Shown piece by piece: positions 10,388 through 54,268 of a stretch of 56,135 bases of DNA. The notes beneath the pieces were generated by a model. The model had not been told where the DNA came from and made no database searches. It worked only from the letters and a program-made list of their open reading frames with translations. A program made the position numbers and the translations under genes. The stretch comes from Bacteroidales bacterium (GTDB lineage: Bacteria; Bacteroidota; Bacteroidia; Bacteroidales; ML635J-15), in contig JAFGVU010000074.1 of assembly GCA_016937855.1 (NCBI GenBank), positions 1 to 56,135 on the forward strand, in the 5' to 3' direction. The first letter of the stretch is position 1, and every line of letters starts with the position of its first letter.

Positions 10388-13300
10388 ATGAAAAAATCTT
10401 TTTTAACTTTATCAATGGCTTTCTTGCTATTCTGTTCCAATTATCTTGAGGCGCAGATTGCCGTAGAAAACTATACGTCTCTGTCCAATGCAGAGGCAGC
10501 AAATGCCCTAGTGGATTCTCTTATGGGTGATGGTGTAACTTTCTCAAATGTCTCTTTTCAGGGAGTGCGTTCTGCATCTGGATATCAGATGGGATATTTT
10601 ACAACTGCAACAACAACAGCAGCCGATATGGGCATTACTCGCGGGGTTGCGCTTTGTTCAGGTGATACAGACTTAATAAGTCACCCTTTAGGAGGTGATC
10701 CCGGTGCTGCAAACACATTTTCTAGGACTTATACGTCTTCTACAACTGGTGAAATCAGAAAAAGCACAGCAAGTATTAATGATATGGATGTTTTAGCAGA
10801 AGGAGGAAGTTGGTATAATGGCTGTATCCTGGAATTTGATTTTGTTCCAGATGGCGATTCTGTAGTTTTTAATTATGTTTTCGGAAGTGAGGAATATGCA
10901 GATAATATTAATTTTACAAATTATCAATGTACAGAATATAATGATAAGTTTGGATTTTTAATCAGTGGACCAGGCGTTTCGGGTGGTGCAGGCTATGATG
11001 ATGATGCACGTAATATTGCCAGATTGAATAATGGCTCTGAAGTGGGTATAAACTCTGTAAATGATGGAGCTGTTGGAAGTTCTGCAACACCTAATGGCCC
11101 GGGTTATTGTTCTGCTACTAATCCGGATTGGGTACAAGGAGTTCCTTCTCCAGAATTTAGTGGCTATATTGATGGGACACAACTAAATGGAAATACTATT
11201 TTATTAAAGGCTGCCCAAGGTGGTCTAACTCCTGGAGCAACATATCATATTAAATTATTAATACTTGATGCTAGAGATGCAGCTTATGATGCCATTGTTT
11301 ATATTGAAGCTGGTTCTTTTTCCAGTCCTCAACCCTCTATTGTTTTAACGGCATCTCCATCGACAATATGCGACGGCGAAACTTCAGAACTTGTTGTCGA
11401 AACGAACGAACTTACTACACCTATTACTTATGCGTGGAGCGAAGGCACAACAAACATAACAGCTTTTGAAAATGATACTATATATGTTTCTCCATCAATC
11501 AATACTACATATACTGTAACTGTTACAGATGCTATGATGCAGCAATATATTGAATCTGTTGATGTGATTGTAACCCCGCTTGTTACACCAACATTTAATG
11601 CTGTTGGTCCATATTGTAGTGGTGATGCTATTCCGGCTCTTCCGACAAGTTCTACTAATGGAATCGATGGAACATGGTCTCCCGCAATTAACAACACTGC
11701 AACAACACTTTATACATTTACTTCCGATGGTGGACAATGTGCAACAAATACAACACTAACAATTGATATTACATCTCCGGTAACACCAACTTTCGATGCT
11801 GTTGGACCATTTTGTAATGGCGATGCAATTCCTGCCTTGCCAACAACCTCAATAAATGGGATTGATGGAACATGGTCGCCGGCGATTGATAACACTATTA
11901 CTACCTTATATACTTTTACTCCCGATGGTGGAGAGTGCGCAACCACCCAAACTTTGACCATAGATATTACTCAACCAACTCTTCCAACTTTTAATGCTGT
12001 TGGTCCATATTGCACTGGAGATATTATTCCTGATTTACCAACAACTTCAACAAATGGAGTTGATGGATCATGGTCGCCAGCGATTAACAACACCGCTACA
12101 ACTGAATATACTTTTACGCCTGATGCCGGTCTGTGCGCTTCATCAACAACTCTTACAATTACAGTAAATCCTCCGGGAACTGTTCCAAGTTTCGATGCGG
12201 TTGGACCGTACTGTAGCGGTGATGCTATTCCTGCACTACCAACAACATCAACTAATGGTATTACTGGCGATTGGTTACCAGCAATTAATAATACTGCTAC
12301 AACAGAATATACTTTTACTCCTGTTATCGGACAATGTGCAACAACTACGACCCTAACAATAACAGTGAACGATCCTGTCGATCCTACATTTGATGCAGTT
12401 GGTCCATACTGTAATGGTGATGTAATTCCTGCACTGCCAACAACTTCGAATAATAGTATAGATGGTACTTGGTCGCCTGCCATAGATAATACTATTACAA
12501 CAGAATATACTTTTACTCCCGATGGCGGAGAGTGTGCAAACTCAACAACTCTAATTATAGACATCACGCAGCCAACTAATCCTACATTTGATGCAGTTGG
12601 TCCATACTGTAATGGTGATGTAATTCCTGCATTGCCAACAACTTCATTAAATGGAGTAAGTGGTACTTGGTCGCCTGCCATAGATAATACTATAACAACT
12701 GAATATACTTTTACTCCTGATGGTGGAGAATGTGCAAGCTCAGCAGCTTTGACAATTAACATCACTCAGCCAACTAATCCAACATTTGATGCAGTTGGTC
12801 CATACTGTAATGGTGATGTAATTTCTGCACTTCCAACAACTTCATTAAATGGAGTAACAGGCTCATGGTCTCCGGCTATTGATAATACTGCAACAACCGA
12901 ATATACATTTACTCCAACAGTTGGTGAATGTGCTAATTTAATAACTCTTACAATTGCGATAGATGATCCTGTTAATCCGGTATTTGATCCTTATGGCCCT
13001 TACTGTCAGGGTGAGCCGTCAGTTGTTTTACCGCAAGTGTCCAATAATTCTGTGAGTGGATCGTGGAATCCAAGCAATATTAATACAGTAAATTCAGGCA
13101 CAAGCAATTATGTGTTTACTCCAAATCCTGGTGAGTGTGCAAATTTATACGATATTGACGTTGTTATTGACCCAAGAATCAGTCCTGAGTTTAATGATTT
13201 TGGACCATACTGTGTTGGTGCTACTGCCGAATTGTTACCATCTATTTCTGATAATGCAATTAACGGATCATGGTCTCCTGCAGAAATCTCGACAAGTACT

Positions 13301-20868: not shown

Positions 20869-23376
20869 CTATTTCCAATTGCCATTTATTTTCTTACCAC
20901 ATTCCGGACAAGTGCCGGTAAAGCCTTCCGTTTGTGCTTCAAATCCATTGCGCTCAATAACGATCGCATTACAATATGGACAAATTGTATTTCTTTTCTC
21001 TGAATTTACATTGCCCAGATAAACATACTTTATTCCATGTTCTTTTGCAATACTGTATGCTTGCTCAAGCGTTGTTAATGGTGTCGAAGGCACATCCTGC
21101 ATTTTGTATGATGGATGAAAACGACTAAAATGCAACGGCACATCTTCAAATCCATTATCCGATAACCATTTGCACATTTCTTCAATCATTTTTAAATTGT
21201 CGGAGTGGTTAGGAATTATCAAATTCGTAATTTCAAGCCAAACACCTTGCTCTTTTAGTGTTTTGAGAGTATTTAGTATAGGCTGGAGGCTAGCTGTTGT
21301 AATATCACGGTAAATAGAATCGCTAAAGCATTTGAGGTCGATATTTGCTGCATCAATAAATGGGATTAATTCCAGTAATGGCTCTTGGTTTATAAAACCA
21401 TTTGAAACTATGATGTTTTTTAATCCTTTTTCGTGTGCAAGTTTTGCCGTTTCAAGCATAAACTCATAAAATACCGTTGGCTCAGTATATGTGTATGAAA
21501 TTGAATTACAATTGTTCTTAATTGCTGTGTAAACAATTTGCTCAGGACTTGCTTCGGTAAAGTCAATATTCATGGGTGAAACTTGCGATATACTAGAGTT
21601 TTGGCAATTTTTACAATGTAAATTACATCCTGCTGTTCCGATAGAAAAAGTATTTGAGCCCGGATAAAAATGATATAGAGGCTTTTTCTCAACTGGATCG
21701 ATATGAACAGCAACTATTTTACCATAACTCATTGATATTAAATCGCCATTCTCGTTTTTTCTTGCATTGCAAAGTCCTATGCTTCCGGGTTTTAAAATGC
21801 ACTCATGTGGACATAGTTTACAGATCACTTTGTTGTTATCAAGTTTTTCGTAATACATTGCTTCTTTTTGAGGACTTATTCCAAAATCCTTTTCAGAAAA
21901 AATAATAGCTTCGTAGGTATATATATCGGCATGTTTCCAGCCATCGTAACTCAAACCTGCTTTGTCGCGTGCACAATGTCCCAAAAATTCTTCCAAGGTC
22001 CAACCGGTTTCGGTTGCTACTTGCGGTAAAAATGTGCCTCCACGATATCCGCTTTTTATGTAAATACCATGTTTTCCTAATTCTATTTCCGAAATACTGT
22101 CTATTTTTTTCATAGGGGTCAAAACAGAAATCTCAATGTCAATTTCATCAAGCTCAGACTTGGTTACAGGCGAAAATCTATGGTCTTTTTGTGATGCTGC
22201 AATTGCCATCTCTACAATAACCTCATAGAGCGGAATATCCGGTTCAAACCGGCCTATGCATCCTCTCAAATTGCCGTTTTTATGAAGTGTTACAAAAGCT
22301 CCACAATGAGAATTGAGATTTTCGGAGAAATTTATTCCACTTAAATCGGGCTTGGTGTTTTTGTCGATTTGTGTTTCAATACTTAAACGTGCTATTTTTA
22401 GCAGTTGAATTTTTTCTTCGTCACTTAATTTAAATGTACTATCGTCCGATGCAGTAATAGATATTGCCCAATAACCAACAACCCTGTCATGACTGCCATA
22501 TTCAGAATCACCTGAGTTTTTGTATTGTATTTTATTGTATTCATAATCTTGATTTGTCAAATACATTAAAGTTAATGCTGCTGACCAACCACAAATATTT
22601 GTTGCAAGGTTCTCTATATTTGACTTTTTGTATTTATTAATGACATCAATAAAGTTGTCTGGGTTGGAACTGCACAAAGCATCACATGTGATACTATCAA
22701 TTTTTACAGCATTTTCATAATCAGGATAGTGTGAAAAATCACTTGAAATGACAAAAGCATTGTTTTCTGTGAAGTAGGGTTTTAAAACATTTGCGATTTC
22801 TTGAATCTCGGATATGTTACTTGTACCTATTACAATTGGAACGATATTGAAATCATTTTGTAAATGAAATTGTAGTAATGGCAATTGAACTTCGATGCTA
22901 TGTTCGGTTTTATGAGCATCGGCATGAAACGAAAAAACACTATTATTATTTATTAACTCGTTGCACAATTGAGTATTTACAAAAACTTCACCAAGTGGAG
23001 TTTCATAATTTCCAATATTATAAATGGAAGCGCCGTCAAAATAGCTGGTATGACTTGATGCTAAAATAAATATATTCTCGTATTGCTTTTCAGGATTTAT
23101 CTGATTTATTGCACTTGCTGCGACCTCACCGCTAAAAACATATCCTGCATGAGGCGATATAACTGCAATAGCATCTTTTTTTCTTTCCTTTGCCGGAGCA
23201 AATAAATGTATTAAATCGTTTCTTAGGCTTGATTCATCACCGGAATAGAATTGACCTGCAACAGCTGGTTTTCTGTTCATAGTATTATCGTTTTTTGTTG
23301 TTTGTGGTTTAATGTGATTGTTCAAACAAAACATAAAGATGGAAAATAAAAAGTATATTTTGAGTGTTCTCCCCAT
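20869..23376 (-). CDS. AmmeMemoRadiSam triple fusion (Memo - AMMECR1 - radical SAM)
   Basis: One 835-residue polypeptide joins the three proteins of the AmmeMemoRadiSam system. The Memo-like part (protein B) begins KPAVAGQFYSGDE and includes VISPHAGYVFSGEVAAS. The AMMECR1 part (protein A) has the hallmark LRGCIGRFEPD. The radical SAM part has an upstream cysteine cluster (CKLCPHEC), the C-x3-C-x2-C cluster GCNLHCKNCQNS, and a C-terminal zinc-ribbon-like pair (CPYC, CPEC). The reaction of the system is unknown. The ATG at 23376 gives a signal-like leader (IYFLFSIFMFCLN); the ATG at 23280 (MNRKPAVAGQF) would give a cytoplasmic protein and may be the true start. A TAnnTTTG promoter lies just upstream, abutting the heptamer array. 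Confidence 0.9.
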   Translation of the reverse strand: MGRTLKIYFLFSIFMFCLNNHIKPQTTKNDNTMNRKPAVAGQFYSGDESSLRNDLIHLFAPAKERKKDAIAVISPHAGYVFSGEVAASAINQINPEKQYENIFILASSHTSYFDGASIYNIGNYETPLGEVFVNTQLCNELINNNSVFSFHADAHKTEHSIEVQLPLLQFHLQNDFNIVPIVIGTSNISEIQEIANVLKPYFTENNAFVISSDFSHYPDYENAVKIDSITCDALCSSNPDNFIDVINKYKKSNIENLATNICGWSAALTLMYLTNQDYEYNKIQYKNSGDSEYGSHDRVVGYWAISITASDDSTFKLSDEEKIQLLKIARLSIETQIDKNTKPDLSGINFSENLNSHCGAFVTLHKNGNLRGCIGRFEPDIPLYEVIVEMAIAASQKDHRFSPVTKSELDEIDIEISVLTPMKKIDSISEIELGKHGIYIKSGYRGGTFLPQVATETGWTLEEFLGHCARDKAGLSYDGWKHADIYTYEAIIFSEKDFGISPQKEAMYYEKLDNNKVICKLCPHECILKPGSIGLCNARKNENGDLISMSYGKIVAVHIDPVEKKPLYHFYPGSNTFSIGTAGCNLHCKNCQNSSISQVSPMNIDFTEASPEQIVYTAIKNNCNSISYTYTEPTVFYEFMLETAKLAHEKGLKNIIVSNGFINQEPLLELIPFIDAANIDLKCFSDSIYRDITTASLQPILNTLKTLKEQGVWLEITNLIIPNHSDNLKMIEEMCKWLSDNGFEDVPLHFSRFHPSYKMQDVPSTPLTTLEQAYSIAKEHGIKYVYLGNVNSEKRNTICPYCNAIVIERNGFEAQTEGFTGTCPECGKKINGNWK

Positions 23377-23398
23377 TTTACATTTCTCGGTCTTTTTG

Positions 23399-23432
23399 CA
23401 AATATACAAAAATTCTGAATAAAAACTCTAAA
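23399..23432 (-). promoter_or_regulatory. Candidate promoter abutting the heptamer array
   Basis: On the minus strand TATATTTG lies at 23406-23399, 22 bp before the ATG at 23376. About 22 bp further upstream is TTTA (23432-23429), formed by the first units of the heptamer array. The -33 side of this promoter is therefore made of repeat DNA. Confidence 0.45.
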
Positions 23433-23695
23433 CTCTAAACTCTAAACTCTAAACTCTAAACTCTAAACTCTAAACTCTAAACTCTAAACACTAAACACTA
23501 AACACTAAACACTAAACACTAAACACTAAACTCTAAACTCTAAACTCTAAACTCTAAACTCTAAACTCTAAACTCTAAACTCTAAACTCTAAACTATAAA
23601 CACTAAACACTAAACACTAAACACTAAACACTAAACACTAAACACTAAACACTAAACACTAAACTCTAAACTCTAAACTCTAAACTCTAAACTCT
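23423..23695. repeat. 39-unit heptamer tandem array with block structure
   Basis: Exactly 273 bp of 7-bp units with no phase break. AAACTCT and AAACACT occur in blocks: 9 of the first, 6 of the second, 9 of the first, one AAACTAT, 9 of the second, 5 of the first. It fills most of the gap between the AmmeMemoRadiSam gene and the VWA/OmpA gene. Further right (23696-23803) there are only degenerate pieces such as AGGCACT; no ORF is present. Confidence 0.95.
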
Positions 23696-23747
23696 AGACA
23701 CTCATAACTTTAGGCACTCTAGGCACTTTCAACTTTAGACAGGCCGT

Positions 23748-23803: not shown

Positions 23804-26161
23804 TCACTGCAACAACAATACCTCTATTCTTCGATTTTCTGCTGCCTTCCAATCTTCATCTTCGGTAGTCCATATTGGATGTTTTTCGCCTAGTGGGATT
23901 AGAATAATTCTCTCCTGATTAATTCCTTTTTCAACAAAGAATTTTTTGGCCCAGTCACATCTTCTGTCTGAGAGTTGTAAATTATACTCGTCTGTATCAA
24001 CTAGATCGGTATGACCAAAAATAGCGACAGAAAGACTTGTATCTTCAATAAGCTTTTCAACAAGTAGCTCAACATTTTCAACATAATCATCAATTAAAAT
24101 ATCTCCATTAAAATTAAAATAGCCAATTGCCTGAGGTAATGTTATCGGTGTTTTGCCGTTGTACAAGCTATCGTACATATTCCAATATGCATTCGGAATG
24201 GATTTTGATTCGTCCAAATCATCGGGTATTTCAGTAAAAACAGGCTTGTGGGTTGTGATTTTTTCTCCTATGTTATTGTTGTATGTGAGCTTAATACCAT
24301 TGAAATTTTCTAATGAGTTTGGTTTAAAACTTACAACATAATAATTTGCGCTTAGGTATGGTAACTCAGTCCAAACTCCAATTATTTCTTTGTCTGAGTT
24401 TATCTCAAAGTATTTTCCTCCAGTATATGCCGACAAAACTTCTAGTAATGCTCTGTTAACATTGTCTCCAAAAGCTATGCATGTAATTTTTATATCGTTG
24501 TCTTTTGCATATTTCGCAATCTGCATTGCACTTATTGCTTTCGCGTTCTTGACAAAAAGAGATGAATTCTCGTAACCATCTGTAAAAATTATAATTTCTT
24601 TGGGTTGTTTAGACTCTTTTAGACTTATTAAACCTTCGCCTACTGCTGCGTAAAGAGCTGTTCCTCCACCAAACCCCCAAAGACCTTTTCTCAAATATCT
24701 CGAGTTTAGAGCTGCCTTGTCTTTTGTTAGCTCAGAAATTATACTAATTTTATCATCAAATTTAACAATACTTAAATTGTCTTGATCATACTTGTTGATT
24801 ATAAATGATTGTGCAGCATGCTCAAGTGTATTTATCGGCTCAATCATAGAACCACTGTAATCCAAAACCATTGAAATGTCTCGTGGAATTGTCTCTTTGG
24901 AAACATATTCCTCTACTTTAAAGTTTGTAATTTGTTTACTTTTTCCTCCTGTGTAAGTTTCAACTAGTCCAATAAAGTGTTTTTTCGATTCCTGATCGCT
25001 AATTGCAGGAGGCGCAAGTCCGTGAACAAAATTCCCTGAGCTATCAACAACAAGAACATATAGTTTTACTAAATCGGGATATTCGCTTAAATCTGTTGAG
25101 AATATCTCATAATCTAATCTAACGTTTTTTTGAATTTTGGAGTAGTCGGTTTCGCCGGAAATATATTTTCGGCTAATCATGTGTGTTTTAAATGCTCTTT
25201 GATCGGTATTGCCATTTAAATATGCAGTTAGGGTGATGATTTCATCACTTTCAGGTTTGTGCTTAAAAAACCCTTTTAAAGGCTGCGAAACATCAGAGCA
25301 AGATAGTTTTACAGAATCAGCATCTTCAACAAGCCAAGTTAAAGTAATATCTTCGCCTCTAAAAAATGTCTTATTGCCTGTGAAAACCTTAATTTTAGAA
25401 TCATAAACTTGGATGCTAAAGTCTTTAACCTCGTAAGTACCATCTGACCGATATATTTCTGCTCTAAATTGCGAATTTTCACTTACCTCAATGTAAATAT
25501 CGCCAATAGGAGGCAATGCTCCGCTAAGATTTATGAATTTTATACTATCTGTATTTTTAAACTCCCACGAAATATTAACATTTGAGTTGCGTGGAACTTT
25601 AAAAGGATAATCAAATTTTTCAATTATTTGTACTTTTACTTTCTTAGATTCACCAGAGGCAAAGCCGTATTTATTATATGCGGTAATTGATATTACTGTG
25701 TCTTTTGAGGCTTTAAAGGGGATTCTGCCTGTAAGGTCAAAATCTTCTTCAAGACCAAATATTCTAACGTATTCTGCGTTTTCTGCTGTCCAGCTTATTG
25801 ATGCTTGTTCTTCGTCTGTTATTTGAGATGGAACACGAAAATCAATAATTGTAGGTTGCAATACTTTTACTCTGATCTTTTTTCGCATGCTCTGATTTCT
25901 TTTATCAGCAAAAAAAGTATAGGCGGTGGTCTGTTCAGGTGCAATAGTAATTGACCCGTTTAATGGCAACCTCTTATTACTAATCTCATAGCAAAAAACA
26001 CTCTTGGCATGCTCCGATTCCCAGGATATCGTTACAGAATCGCCAAGCGAAATAGTGTTTTTATCAGTAAATACTTTTATACGTGGCTTTTTGGCAGAAA
26101 CATCTAAAACACAAATCAGTAATATTATACTGATAAAAATTAGGTGGCGGCAAATTTTCAT
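23804..26161 (-). CDS. VWA domain and OmpA domain envelope protein
   Basis: A 785-residue exported protein (signal HLIFISIILLICVLDVSA). The first 330 residues look like four Ig-like beta domains with recurring pattern (SLGDSVTISWESEHAKSV; RGEDITLTWLVEDADSV). A von Willebrand A domain follows, with the MIDAS motif DYSGSM and downstream TDGYENSS. The C-terminus is an OmpA-type peptidoglycan-binding domain (GHTDLVDTDEYNLQLSDRRC, AAENRRIEV). It probably displays a metal-dependent adhesion module in the periplasm anchored to peptidoglycan; partner unknown. The ATG at 26161 gives a clean signal peptide and is preferred to the ORF extension upstream. Confidence 0.87.
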   Translation of the reverse strand: MKICRHLIFISIILLICVLDVSAKKPRIKVFTDKNTISLGDSVTISWESEHAKSVFCYEISNKRLPLNGSITIAPEQTTAYTFFADKRNQSMRKKIRVKVLQPTIIDFRVPSQITDEEQASISWTAENAEYVRIFGLEEDFDLTGRIPFKASKDTVISITAYNKYGFASGESKKVKVQIIEKFDYPFKVPRNSNVNISWEFKNTDSIKFINLSGALPPIGDIYIEVSENSQFRAEIYRSDGTYEVKDFSIQVYDSKIKVFTGNKTFFRGEDITLTWLVEDADSVKLSCSDVSQPLKGFFKHKPESDEIITLTAYLNGNTDQRAFKTHMISRKYISGETDYSKIQKNVRLDYEIFSTDLSEYPDLVKLYVLVVDSSGNFVHGLAPPAISDQESKKHFIGLVETYTGGKSKQITNFKVEEYVSKETIPRDISMVLDYSGSMIEPINTLEHAAQSFIINKYDQDNLSIVKFDDKISIISELTKDKAALNSRYLRKGLWGFGGGTALYAAVGEGLISLKESKQPKEIIIFTDGYENSSLFVKNAKAISAMQIAKYAKDNDIKITCIAFGDNVNRALLEVLSAYTGGKYFEINSDKEIIGVWTELPYLSANYYVVSFKPNSLENFNGIKLTYNNNIGEKITTHKPVFTEIPDDLDESKSIPNAYWNMYDSLYNGKTPITLPQAIGYFNFNGDILIDDYVENVELLVEKLIEDTSLSVAIFGHTDLVDTDEYNLQLSDRRCDWAKKFFVEKGINQERIILIPLGEKHPIWTTEDEDWKAAENRRIEVLLLQ

Positions 26162-26306
26162 ATCAGAATTTTTATATTTTAACGAAAATAAAACAAATTT
26201 TATTGAGTACAGCATAAAAAAATATCATATTTCTTGCGAAACATATTCCTGCATCAATGGGATGTTGAAAAGGGAATGAAAATTGTTTATCTTTATATTC
26301 TAAAGA

Positions 26307-29742: not shown

Positions 29743-29970
29743 CAATGCTTTTAGGAGAATGTTAATATCTAAAATCACTTTTACAAACGCGAAATTGCTT
29801 AATCATATCTCAATTATGTTGGCATGTTATAAAAGCAGGCACTGATTAGTCGAAATCCTTCTTAAAATCAAAAGCAATTTAAGGCTGTGGGAATAGTTAA
29901 GTGATGTATTATCAATTCAAAATGCAATTATTAAACTAATAATATGATTTCTTCGTGCAATATTCAAATT
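29743..29970. other. Gap with no recognised feature
   Basis: AT-rich DNA between the NadR-like gene and the 32-bp-period array. No ORF, RNA gene or strong hairpin was seen. Confidence 0.4.
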
Positions 29971-30048
29971 TATACTTTAAATTTGCATTGTAAAATTAAA
30001 GTTGTACTTTAAATTTGCACTGTATTATTAAACTTATACTTTAAAATT
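29971..30048 (+). repeat. Array of 16-bp repeats at exact 32-bp period, upstream of the AAA/DUF4143 gene
   Basis: Copies start at 29971 (TATACTTTAAATTTGC), 30003 (TGTACTTTAAATTTGC) and 30035 (TATACTTTAAAATT, interrupted). Spacers are 16 bp and unrelated. The third copy is split by the IS; removing the IS and one target duplication gives TATACTTTAAAATTGT followed immediately by the ATG of the ATPase gene at 31299. A fourth upstream copy is not evident. Confidence 0.82.
30040..30048 (+). repeat. Left 9-bp target-site duplication of the IS
   Basis: TTTAAAATT directly precedes the left end of the element and is identical to 31288-31296. It lies within the third array repeat. Confidence 0.88.
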
Positions 30049-31140
30049 CTAAGTACATGACAAAAAATTGCAACATAATTTGAATTTTTCAAGATTATTG
30101 CTAAAAATCAGATTTGCCAAGTAATCTAGCCCATATTTAAATAAGGATTTTGCTTTTCTTTTGTGTTTTTTTATTTTTATAGGAACAGTTTTATTTAAAA
30201 ATATTCCGGTTTTATATGCCCAGACATAAGCAATAAGTACCAAAGCTAATAACTTTTCAATTCTTTCAGGGTCTTTTAGATGCGTATCTTCAATGTTAAA
30301 TCCGCTTGACTTTAAAGCCCTAAAGGCTGTTTCTATTTGCCATCTTTGTTTATATGTGCTTTGAGCAAGGTTTTGACTTTCAAAAGAAACGATTATTTGT
30401 AATTATGGTTTACCTTCTTTACTTTTTGCCAATGATCCAGAAATAAAACATTTTTGTTTTCCAATATAAAACGCATGTCTGTAATAATCTGATTGGTTGC
30501 ATTTCAGATGACTAAAAAGCCTTGATACATTGTATTTTCTCTGATTCTTTTTATTGAATGCAATGAAATTATTGCGTATCCTAACATGATATTTTATTTT
30601 GTTTGTATTCAAATATTTCATCCATTGCTCACCAATAAATTCTCTGTCAGCCAAAAGGAATTTTATAGAGTCTTTACCAAATAAGTTTATGTAGTGATTC
30701 ATAAGATTTATTCTTTCTTTAGTTGATGAATTTCCAAATTTTGGCAGTAGCTTAAATAGTATTGGAAATGCGACACCGTCGTAAACTATTGCAATGACAA
30801 GAAAGTTGATATTCGTTTGCCCAAACTTCCAATTTGTCCTATCCATTGCTAAACTATATGGAGGGTCATGTGGTAGTAACGAATAAATCAATTTTGCAAT
30901 TAGGTCAAGATCTAATTTAAACTCAGAAATAAAACGTTGAATACGCCTTAATGATGAATCTACTTTTGCTGTATGATCAAAGTATATAGCTAACTTCTCG
31001 AAACAAACAGTCTGTGCTGAACATAAAGCAGTTATAAATAGTCCAATAAATTTTATTCTTGCTAGATTTAAACTTTTTCCAAAGATACTTATCAATGTGT
31101 CATTTAAAATGCTAATTTTACTTTCAACTTTGGTAGTCAT
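30049..31140 (-). pseudogene. IS4 family DDE transposase with an in-frame stop
   Basis: The reading frame from ATG 31140 (MTTKVESKIS) runs to the TAG at 30049-30051 and would encode 363 residues, broken only by a TAA at 30403-30405. Upstream of the stop are both catalytic aspartates (SLAMDRTNWKFG; FLLADREFIGEQW). Downstream, in the same frame, is the IS4 signature Y-x2-R-x3-E-x6-K (YKQRWQIETAFRALK), which holds the catalytic glutamate. The truncated product therefore lacks the glutamate and should be inactive unless the stop is read through. An apparent further extension starts at a TTG at 31203. Confidence 0.88.
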
Positions 31141-31287
31141 ATACGTTAGTTTTAGACGTGAGAATTTATTATCTAACGTATTGATTGCCAGAGTTTTATG
31201 CAAGTAATTTGTTTGTTATTTGTTAATAGTAGATTGTTGATAATTATTTGATTATCAGAAAATTAAGAATTTTTGTCATGTACTAAG
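30049..31287. mobile_element. IS4-like insertion sequence, 1239 bp
   Basis: The ends are inverted repeats: CTAAGTACATGACAAAAA on the left and, read inward from the right, CTTAGTACATGACAAAAA (one mismatch). A perfect 9-bp direct repeat TTTAAAATT flanks the element (30040-30048 and 31288-31296), so the boundaries are well supported. It carries one DDE transposase on the minus strand, which has an internal stop. The intact ends and target duplication point to a fairly recent insertion. It landed in the last upstream repeat of an AAA ATPase gene, 11 bp from the start codon. Confidence 0.92.
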
Positions 31288-31296
31288 TTTAAAATT
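31288..31296 (+). repeat. Right 9-bp target-site duplication of the IS
   Basis: TTTAAAATT follows the right inverted repeat. The ATG of the disrupted ATPase gene begins two bases later. Confidence 0.88.
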
Positions 31297-31298
31297 GT

Positions 31299-32443
31299 AT
31301 GTATTTAAGAAAACAAATATTTGAAGGATTAGAAAAGGAATCATGCTTTTTTTGGGGTGCTCGACAAACCGGTAAAACTACATTGTTAAAGCAAATGTTT
31401 CCCGATTCAATTTATATTGATTTCTTGATTAATTCTGAGTTTTTACGTTTTAGTAGCAATACGGATTTGTTGAGAGAAGTAGTCGAAGCAAATAATAGCG
31501 ACAAGCCTGTAATAATTGATGAAGTTCAACGTTTGCCGGAATTGTTAAACGAAGTTCATTGGTTAATTGTGAACAAAGGTACGCAGTTTATTTTAAGCGG
31601 TTCTAGTCCGCAAAAATAATCAGAGCAGGAGTAAATTTATTGGGCGGTAGAGCTTTACGCTATGAACTTTATCCATTGGTGTATTCTGAAATTGATAATT
31701 TTAATCTAAAAAAGGTTCTAAGTTGGGGAAGTTTACCGCGACACTATTTGTCCGAGAATCCCAAAAAACTTCTGTCTGCGTATATTGGCTCTTACTTGCG
31801 TGATGAAATTATTGCAGAGGCTAAACTGCGAAATATTACAGCTTTTACTAAATTTCTCGAATCTGCTGCTTTTTCAAATGGTGAAATTGTAAATTATTCA
31901 AATATGGCTACCGATTGCGGTGTTAGCTCTGTAACTGTTAAGGAATATTTCGGCATTTTAGAAGATACTCTTATCGGACGATTTGTACCTGCTTATACAA
32001 AAAAAGCTAAAAGACGTATTGTAAGTTCTCCAAAATTCTATTTTTTTGATATAGGTGTTGCAAATTTCCTGCACAAACTTAATGGAGTTGTCGAAAAAAC
32101 TGAAGCTTATGGCAAGGCTTTGGAACATCTTGTTTATCTTGAGATGTACGCTTATTGCAAATACAATGATTTAGATTATGAAATTTCTTATTGGCGAACA
32201 TCTGCTCAAACAGAAGTGGATTTTGTTGTTGGTAATGCCGAAATTGCAATAGAAGTAAAAGCTGCTGACAATGTTCAAAACAAACATTTAAGAGGATTGA
32301 AACAATTTGCTGATGATTATCAGCCTAAAAGATCTATTGTTGTAAGCACAGATAAATATTACCGAAAGAGTGATAATATTGAAATGATGCATATAGAATA
32401 TTTTTTAAATGAACTTTGGAACAATAGAATTATAAATAGCTAA
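31299..32443 (+). pseudogene. AAA ATPase with DUF4143 domain, frameshifted
   Basis: The first part (31299-31619) has a Walker A motif WGARQTGKTTLLKQ, Walker B PVIIDEVQRLPEL and sensor LSGSSPQK, then stops. The second part continues in another frame as IIRAGVNLLGGRALRYELYP, the normal continuation in this family, and runs to 32443. One extra A in the run of five A at about 31612-31616 would restore the frame. The C-terminal half has the DUF4143 features, including the PD-(D/E)xK-like TEVDFVVGNAEIAIEVKAAD. Such ATPases are common in prokaryotes with unclear roles. The IS sits just upstream, so expression was probably lost first; slippage on the A run cannot be excluded. Confidence 0.85.
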
Positions 32444-52856: not shown

Positions 52857-52923
52857 CTATTTAGTACCTGATTGAATTTTGGAAAAATAATCCAGAAATC
52901 ATAGATAATATTCAAAATAAAGT

Positions 52924-53068
52924 GTTGTATTAAAACTACATAATAGTAATTATAATGTTGTATTAAAACAACAAAAAAAATAATTAATGTTGTAAGAAAA
53001 AGACAAAAAAGTTTAAAAATGTTTTAATAATACAATAATATAGTGTATATTTGTTGTATAAAAACAAC
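52924..53068 (+). repeat. Array of five 16-bp repeats at 32-bp period ahead of an AAA ATPase gene
   Basis: Copies start at 52924, 52957, 52989, 53021 and 53053 (steps 33, 32, 32, 32). The best copies are GTTGTATTAAAACAAC (52957) and GTTGTATAAAAACAAC (53053), with inverted ends GTTGT/ACAAC; 52989 and 53021 are degenerate. Spacers are 16-17 bp, AT-rich and unrelated. The last copy ends three bases before the ATG at 53072. Confidence 0.85.
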
Positions 53069-53071
53069 AGT

Positions 53072-54268
53072 ATGGAATCTTTAATACGTTATTCAGAAAG
53101 AAAGCTTAATAAAACCCTGATATCATTTTCGAGGTATTTGCTTGATGAAATTGAATGGGACGATACACTTATTGGGATAAAAGGCGCAAAAGGTACAGGT
53201 AAAACGACCATAATGTTGCAAAGGTTAAAGTCTGTTTATGGTAATTCGGATAAGGCAATGTATGTTTCGCTTGATAATTATTATTTCACAAAAAACAGAT
53301 TGTTCGATTTTGCAGAAGAATTTTATCTGATGGGTGGCCGAGCATTATTTCTTGATGAAGTTCATAGATACCCAACATGGTCAATAGAAATTAAAAATCT
53401 ATATGATATTTATGACGATTTAAAAATCGTTTTTTCCGGTTCCTCAGCTTTGCAATTACAAAAAGCCGAAGGAGACTTGAGTAGAAGGGCAGCAATATAT
53501 AATCTCCATGAATTGTCATTTAGAGAGTATCTTGAGTTAACAGGTAAAGGTGAGTTTGATAAGTTTTCGCTGAAAGATATTTTGGATAATCATAAAGAAA
53601 TAGCAAACTCTGTTATTGATAAATTATCAATCATTCCGGAATTTAGAAACTATCTTAAAGAAGGAGCATATCCATTTATAAAAACTGCAAAAGGCCAAGT
53701 TTATGACAGGCTGTTAAATACACTAAATGTTACGATAGAAAGTGAGTTGCAAATCATAGAGGGTATAAATTATAATACAGCCTATAAACTAAGACAACTT
53801 GTTGCAATATTGTCAGATTCTGTTCCTTTTAAAGTTAATATATCCGACTTAAGTCGAACAGTTGGTTTAAGCAGAGATGTTTTATTACGATTGCTTAAGG
53901 CATTAGACAGAGCAAATTTGATTAAAGGAATAAAAGCCGAAGGGTCTGCAATGGGATATTTAACAAAACCTGATAAAATATATTTGAATAACACCAATTT
54001 GCTTTTAGCTCTTAACTCTGTAGATAAAAATATTGAAGGTACTGTAAGAGAAACATTTTTTATGAACCAAATGATACAAGCTCATGAGGTTAAGTCTTCT
54101 AAAACCGGAGATTTTATTATTGATGACAAGTATTTGTTCGAGGTTGGTGGCGCAAAAAAAGGATTTGCTCAAATATCAAATATCAAAGATTCGTATATCG
54201 CAGCAGATAATATTGAAACAGGGGTTGGAAATAAAATACCACTTTGGCTTTTTGGTTTTATGTACTAA
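53072..54268 (+). CDS. AAA family ATPase (AAA_14-like), preceded by a repeat array
   Basis: A 398-residue P-loop ATPase with Walker A GIKGAKGTGKTTIMLQRL, Walker B ALFLDEVHRYPTW and sensor IVFSGSSALQ. A helical middle and winged-helix-like region (FKVNISDLSRTVGLSRDVLL) follow, and a C-terminal nuclease-like strand pattern (GDFIIDDKYLFEVGGAKKGF) in which the usual ExK reads ExG. It resembles the broken AAA/DUF4143 gene at 31299. Function of this class is unclear. The ATG at 53072 starts right after the array's last repeat; an apparent start at 53051 is a TTG and not used. The gene is not clearly in an operon. Confidence 0.85.
   Translation: MESLIRYSERKLNKTLISFSRYLLDEIEWDDTLIGIKGAKGTGKTTIMLQRLKSVYGNSDKAMYVSLDNYYFTKNRLFDFAEEFYLMGGRALFLDEVHRYPTWSIEIKNLYDIYDDLKIVFSGSSALQLQKAEGDLSRRAAIYNLHELSFREYLELTGKGEFDKFSLKDILDNHKEIANSVIDKLSIIPEFRNYLKEGAYPFIKTAKGQVYDRLLNTLNVTIESELQIIEGINYNTAYKLRQLVAILSDSVPFKVNISDLSRTVGLSRDVLLRLLKALDRANLIKGIKAEGSAMGYLTKPDKIYLNNTNLLLALNSVDKNIEGTVRETFFMNQMIQAHEVKSSKTGDFIIDDKYLFEVGGAKKGFAQISNIKDSYIAADNIETGVGNKIPLWLFGFMY

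Follow-up and report, generated by a model that had tools for sequence, protein, structure and literature searches.

Candidate self-regulatory operator array in front of an AAA_14/DUF4143-type ATPase gene of a Bacteroidales bacterium and its homologues

The ATPase gene and the repeats in front of it

The window analysed here comprises 56,135 nucleotides from a Bacteroidales bacterium (assembly GCA_016937855.1, contig JAFGVU010000074.1, positions 1 to 56,135 of the forward strand). It contains a solitary gene for an AAA_14/DUF4143-type ATPase, and directly in front of this gene lie five copies of an 18-nt repeat at steps of 33, 32, 32 and 32 bp, the last of them separated by 2 bp from the ATG (Table 1). 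The repeat unit is an 18-bp palindrome, TGTTGT-N6-ACAACA, with TG...CA ends. The outer six bases of units 2 and 5 form a perfect palindrome, those of unit 1 contain one change, and units 3 and 4 are degenerate; identity to copy 2 is 94% for copies 1 and 5 and 78% for copies 3 and 4. The initial annotation of this DNA had drawn five 16-bp repeats. These are the same units minus their outer T and A, and are better drawn as the 18-bp palindrome.

Table 1. Features of the window discussed in the text (positions are those of the window).
Feature	Position	Strand	Remarks
Operator unit 1 (candidate)	52923..52940	none	TGTTGTATTAAAACTACA
Operator unit 2 (candidate)	52956..52973	none	perfect half-sites
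Operator unit 3 (candidate)	52988..53005	none	degenerate
Operator unit 4 (candidate)	53020..53037	none	degenerate; centre ~24 bp 5' of the -7-box G
-7 box match	53046..53053	+	TATATTTG, match to TAnnTTTG (assumed consensus)
Operator unit 5 (candidate)	53052..53069	none	perfect half-sites; opening TG shared with the end of the -7 box
AAA_14/DUF4143-type ATPase gene	53072..54268	+	398 residues, stop included in the coordinates; solitary gene
AAA_14 nucleotide-binding domain	53165..53533	+	residues 32-154; 94.3 bits, cut-off 27
Winged helix	53771..53986	+	residues 234-305; predicted model
Recognition helix	53873..53911	+	residues 268-280; residues 267-269 among the top half-site-covarying columns
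C-terminal domain	54032..54265	+	residues 321-398; suspected endonuclease-like fold with an unusual catalytic signature
Second array	29966..30048	none	three 19-nt copies, 32-bp steps
Insertion sequence	30049..31287	-	DDE_Tnp_1 open reading frame 30403-31203; nearly matching inverted ends
Broken second AAA_14/DUF4143 gene	31299..32443	+	two open reading frames, 31299-31619 and 31640-32443

The five-repeat array is most unlikely to be a product of base composition. With an array score that rewards palindromy plus a 32- or 33-bp step, the 200 bp upstream of the ATPase gene yield z = 20, and none of 1000 dinucleotide shuffles reached the score, so that the comparison of the spacing with shuffled sequence suggested in the initial annotation comes out in favour of the array. 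An exact search of the 4.44-Mb genome assembly for TGTTGT-N6-ACAACA finds only two occurrences, which are both inside the window array; with at most one mismatch there are 34, compared to 26 for a reversed-pattern control.

The ATPase passes the curated cut-off for AAA_14 (PF13173) by a wide margin and scores 24.3 bits for DUF4143 (PF13635), just below the cut-off of 28.1, which some homologues pass (for example G003:C17 with 36.7 bits). Walker A and B motifs are intact (GAKGTGKTT and LFLDEVH), with G38, G41, G43, K44 and D95 invariant in 111 sequences. In an AlphaFold model with a predicted local distance difference test score (pLDDT) of 93.6 and a predicted template-modelling score (pTM) of 0.91, the winged helix consists of helices 234–249, 257–264 and 268–280 and a wing between strands 284–289 and 302–305, and residues 267–269 lie where the recognition helix begins. 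A single chain contains nucleotide-binding, helical and winged-helix parts, as in STAND or SSO1545-like proteins. The C-terminal domain departs from the PD-(D/E)XK signature D...(D/E)-x-K, as the invariant residues D347, E357 and K363 give E-x5-K instead of E-x-K.

The gene has many relatives. Its own genome contains twelve matches to the window ATPase, itself included, six of the others at 41–45% identity, and 21 DUF4143 matches in all. One of the six is truncated. At L007 (G000:C237), a truncated paralogue, the flank past the 3' end of the match holds 8-bp-spaced and longer direct repeats. Counting the own genome, a member was found in 213 of 393 sampled genomes of the order at E ≤ 1e-60 and in 24 of 198 sampled genomes of the phylum at E ≤ 1e-40. 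A homologue at E ≤ 1e-8 was present in one of 50,697 phage records.

Array geometry and promoter register in homologous genes

The homologue set comprised 364 loci, including 20 short fragments of genes that were refetched in full and some duplicates of the same gene from two collections. A usable full-length gene with its promoter was obtained at 298 loci, and removal of 29 near-identical promoters left 269. A more distant DUF4143 set of 30 loci gave 29 genes, 28 of them after length and redundancy filters. The sample is without archaeal members, the automatic choice of start codons may be wrong at some loci, and the counts below are of non-independent events, as the genes are related. All z and p values for the family are taken against shuffles of the same promoter.

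An array score with p ≤ 0.01 was found in 200 of the 269 promoters, with about 2.7 expected, and p ≤ 0.05 in 224. The initial annotation had named homologous genes without an upstream 32-bp period as the observation that would count against it; instead, most homologues have it. The same spacing is apparent in the autocorrelation of the upstream sequences. In a first survey of 79 non-redundant upstream regions (87 usable), the mean autocorrelation peaked at lags 33 (z 2.11 ± 0.21) and 32 (1.70 ± 0.19), with a second harmonic at 64–66. Values of z > 3 at lags 31–34 were reached by 60 of 138 near homologues and, among genes from other DUF4143 subfamilies, by 10 of 28, compared with none of 82 neighbour-gene promoters and one of 129 downstream stretches. 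When single lags from 19 to 55 were scanned in the 269 promoters, z > 4 was obtained in 132 at lag 33, 65 at lag 32, 16 at lag 31 and none at lag 34; among 83 neighbour promoters there was one such case at lag 33 and none at lag 32.

These comparisons bear on the possibility that the periodicity arises by chance in AT-rich DNA. The promoters have a G+C content of 28% compared with 37% in the neighbour-promoter controls, and the neighbour control is therefore not composition-matched. However, both the window score and the family scores were judged against shuffles of the very promoter concerned, and the peak is confined to 32–33 bp and its harmonic. Chance was rejected on the strength of the 200 of 269 promoters, the lag scan against neighbours and the window shuffles, and we regard it as exceedingly improbable.

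The step of 32–33 bp fits the suggestion in the initial annotation that proteins bound to successive units would lie on one face of the DNA. This spacing is not universal because a subclass of four loci (L006, L154, L356 and L361) with TGCTTT-type half-sites steps by 29 bp. The subclass explains an apparent exception, L006, whose p value under 32/33-bp steps is 0.34. Upstream of two more distant DUF4143 genes (L196 and L197), repeats seem by eye to be about 22 bp apart, or two helical turns.

Arrays are also present in named strains. Eight promoters from plasmid-collection records were compared with 300 shuffles each, for which the lowest possible p is 0.0033, and six reached this value: those of Parabacteroides distasonis (L365), Emticicia oligotrophica, Runella slithyformis, Segatella copri and, with two promoters, Persicobacter psychrovividus. 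A Bacteroides finegoldii record (L370) was excluded, its gene looking broken. Ordinary metabolic genes are found on some of the records, which may be pieces of chromosomes.

The arrays keep a fixed register with the promoter. The motif TAnnTTTG, which we take to be the Bacteroidota −7 box consensus, occurs within 90 bp of the ATG in 170 of the 200 arrays, compared with 8% of shuffled 90-mers. Relative to the last G of the box, unit centres cluster near +8, −24, −56, −88 and −120, and −24 is the commonest site position in the family. A unit is centred 15–33 bp upstream of the box G in 149 of the 170 promoters and lies over the start in 63. In the window, units 4 and 5 are centred at −24.5 and +7.5, both family-preferred positions, and unit 5 should cover the transcription start of the ATPase gene.

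A protein bound close to the promoter core or over the start usually blocks polymerase. Because a protein on sites just 5' of the −7 box, or on those that cover the probable start, should hinder polymerase, repression is the favoured sign of regulation. Alternatively, the array-bound ATPase could be an activator, or a conditional switch that represses at rest and activates when triggered. Measured from the −7 box, units are found as far upstream as about −120 and −152, which is also the case in activator arrays, and the fold of the protein is of the nucleotide-switch type. The sites that vary least in position, however, are those next to the core promoter and across the probable start, and we consider this alternative rather unlikely.

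Half-sites and their candidate reader

While the geometry of the arrays is conserved, the letters of the half-sites are not. The 200 arrays contain 90 different half-site hexamers, a number inflated by its dependence on the unit register, with some arrays read shifted. Orthologues agree in their half-sites and paralogues mostly differ. Genome G018, for example, has seven filtered arrays with seven half-sites (TGACTT, TCACTT, TGCTAT, TAGTGT, AGGTTA, TGCGCA and TGTTTT). TGCGCA is found again at the relatives of one of these genes in genomes G006 and G014, and AGGTTA is common to two genes within genome G013. In a set of 44 genes from 13 genomes, all 28 between-genome pairs with at least 70% protein identity shared at least five of the six letters; at less than 55% identity this was the case for 16 of 815 pairs between genomes and two of 66 within genomes. 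In 325 of 425 pairs of related genes, the spacers had changed more than the outer half-sites. The half-sites so diverge with descent. A selective pressure on paralogues to keep their sites distinct was considered as well and is without support, given the two of 66 pairs within genomes compared with 16 of 815 between them. The window ATPase has candidate cognate sites in the promoter of its own gene that are private to that gene, as is expected of a self-regulating DNA-binding protein.

The initial annotation had left open whether the sites are bound by the ATPase or by a partner, and whether the locus is a mobile-like module. We surveyed 371 open reading frames around 136 loci, with flanks of about 1.5 kb at most, and found no widely conserved neighbour gene, the two largest families, one of which includes the aminotransferase gene that precedes the window ATPase, occurring at four loci each. 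A co-directional reading frame starts within 60 bp downstream at 15 of the 136 loci, and a divergent one lies within 300 bp upstream at 21. These counts give no support to a partner protein as the reader. A mobile-like module is likewise without support: no mobility feature was seen that is part of the array, and the upstream gene recurs at only those four loci.

Covariation between protein and half-site was examined in the 200 genes with array p ≤ 0.01. The columns with the highest excess information about the half-site were D269, E230, S267, S261 and V220, followed by G295, R268, T263, G286, T298 and G35; after correction for column variability the leaders were D269, S267, E230, R268 and S261. 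A pair test on five columns gave a correlation of 0.243, the best of 500 control sets reaching 0.170. Because the five columns were chosen on the same data as those tested, a scan of protein segments and a split-half test were also run. Among 390 eight-residue segments, taken without any choice of columns, the seven best start at residues 261–267 and the eighth at 294, with a best correlation of 0.205 and a median of 0.017. When the genes were split into disjoint halves of different clades, 6 and 2 of the 390 segments did at least as well as segment 266–273, which is itself included in these counts. At the level of single residues, R269 pairs with a G as the fourth half-site letter in 13 of 16 genes. 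Overall, the half-site shows its strongest covariation where the recognition helix of the ATPase's own winged helix begins. Together with the promoter position and the lack of a widely conserved partner, this covariation argues for the proposal of an operator-like array read by the ATPase.

Two other readers can be weighed against the same data. A host regulator or nucleoid protein might bind the array in place of the ATPase. A common host factor is unlikely because the paralogues within one cell are preceded by several distinct half-sites, and variation in the site goes together with variation in the ATPase's own recognition helix; we give this possibility very little credence. The array might also be an iteron- or ORB (origin recognition box)-like origin element with the ATPase as its initiator. 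The first row of a Foldseek search is Cdc6/Orc1 on origin DNA (2qby, E 8.9e-8), but the TM-score is just 0.31; the spacing is iteron-like, and some relatives are on plasmid records. Several copies per genome, arrays in register with promoters and different half-sites before paralogues do not suit a replicator, and the iteron reading offered in the initial annotation is left without support and seems highly improbable.

These results lead us to propose self-regulation, probably by repression, in which each ATPase binds the operator array of its own gene; we consider this likely on the sequence data at hand. The array would be the operator set for the gene directly behind it, and the ATPase would read the sites by its own winged helix, probably as one dimer per 18-bp palindrome, with cooperation between adjacent dimers about three helical turns apart. 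Binding would most likely repress the ATPase gene (negative autoregulation). Each paralogue would be wired mainly to itself, because paralogues mostly differ in half-site. From the computed features we infer that the protein physically binds the sites as one dimer each, that it represses and does not activate, and that the nucleotide state of its STAND-like core controls the binding.

Several observations weigh against this proposal. The threshold of p ≤ 0.01 is missed by 69 of the 269 homologue promoters, and when any of the 37 lags is allowed, z > 4 is also reached by 9 of 83 neighbour promoters, compared with 192 of 269. Arrays in Campylobacterota are weaker and shorter (7 of 19 at p ≤ 0.01), and two of the eight named-strain promoters, those of Aliarcobacter cryaerophilus (p 0.66) and P. 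distasonis L372 (p 0.53), show nothing. As to the reader, D269 is outside the top 14 columns in the second clade half, the first also gives high scores to G35 and L52 in the ATPase domain, and the covarying columns E230, V220 and G35 (the last in the ATPase domain) lie outside the winged helix. The R269–G pairing is found in three clades only and may partly reflect unit register. Finally, site position alone cannot tell a repressor from an activator.

Other window features and related systems

A second array in the window is separated from its AAA_14/DUF4143 gene by an insertion sequence, which is flanked by a 9-bp duplication (30040–30048 and 31288–31296). The gene is broken and belongs to another subfamily, because it was found by the DUF4143 search and is absent from the matches to the window ATPase. 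Elsewhere, about 39 copies of a 7-bp tandem repeat at 23423–23696, in blocks of AAACTCT and AAACACT, separate two tandem minus-strand reading frames (20869–23409 and 23804–26215). Long tandem repeats are found at 1–1934 (about 228 bp, 8.5 copies) and 11588–12915 (about 198 bp, 6.7 copies); their unit lengths are multiples of three, and they are perhaps repeat domains of large proteins.

The initial annotation could name no known family that would account for the locus. The ATPase falls in AAA_14 and is also matched over most of its length by three PDC-S01 profiles of PADLOC (E 3.1e-21, 9e-21 and 9e-17) and weakly by three more, as judged by profile E-values alone. PDC-S01 is an abundant candidate for phage defence. 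It is counted 9986 times in archaea and 29,494 times in bacteria in PMC12988326, which ranks it as the fourth most common prokaryotic defence type and describes PDCs as still unvalidated. The words "promoter" and "operator" are absent from the main text of that paper, and the operator array described here is an added feature.

In the predicted model, the fold of the ATPase resembles SSO1545, CED-4 and the cores of plant NLRs. The SSO1545-type archaeal AAA+ ATPases 2fna and 2qen are 17% and 15% identical to it. Compared with the STAND NTPases CED-4, Apaf-1 and plant NLRs, the window ATPase is without a repeat sensor domain, and its DNA-covariation signal lies in the winged helix. Through its NB-ARC domain, the NLR Rx1 binds DNA and also bends and melts it, with no specific site named in the available part of PMC4599002. 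IniR, as described in PMC5760070, is likewise a transcriptional regulator with an AAA+ domain modelled on SSO1545, but its DNA-binding part is a separate LuxR-like C-terminal domain and its target is the iniBAC operon. BrxR, CapW and RptR are similar in being DNA-binding regulators that control defence genes. They use palindromic operators. However, they are separate regulator genes, whereas in the present case the ATPase itself would contain the reader and the operators form a multi-site array with a fixed step. Autoregulation, operator arrays and STAND cores are each known singly. Their combination, in which most examined members of a candidate defence ATPase family have their own array and a STAND-like core, was not found in print in a searched literature that is thin in subscription journals.

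Somewhat doubtfully, the self-regulation proposed above can be extended to a self-locking family. A resting protein (for example the ADP form) on its private array might keep its gene nearly off until a trigger, perhaps caused by a phage, shifts its nucleotide state; the winged helix would then be freed, the promoter opened and a nuclease-like effector released. Just as tentatively, a single polypeptide could then combine sensor, repressor and effector, and in every copy the recognition helix would coevolve with the array.

If the members of this family are self-wired DNA-binding switches, their function would be testable at once, as the array could serve both as a reporter and in a binding assay. 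Residues 267–269 and the half-site would then constitute a specificity code that could be tested by helix swaps. The ATPase would also be a bacterial case of an NLR-like core whose winged helix reads a specific DNA site.
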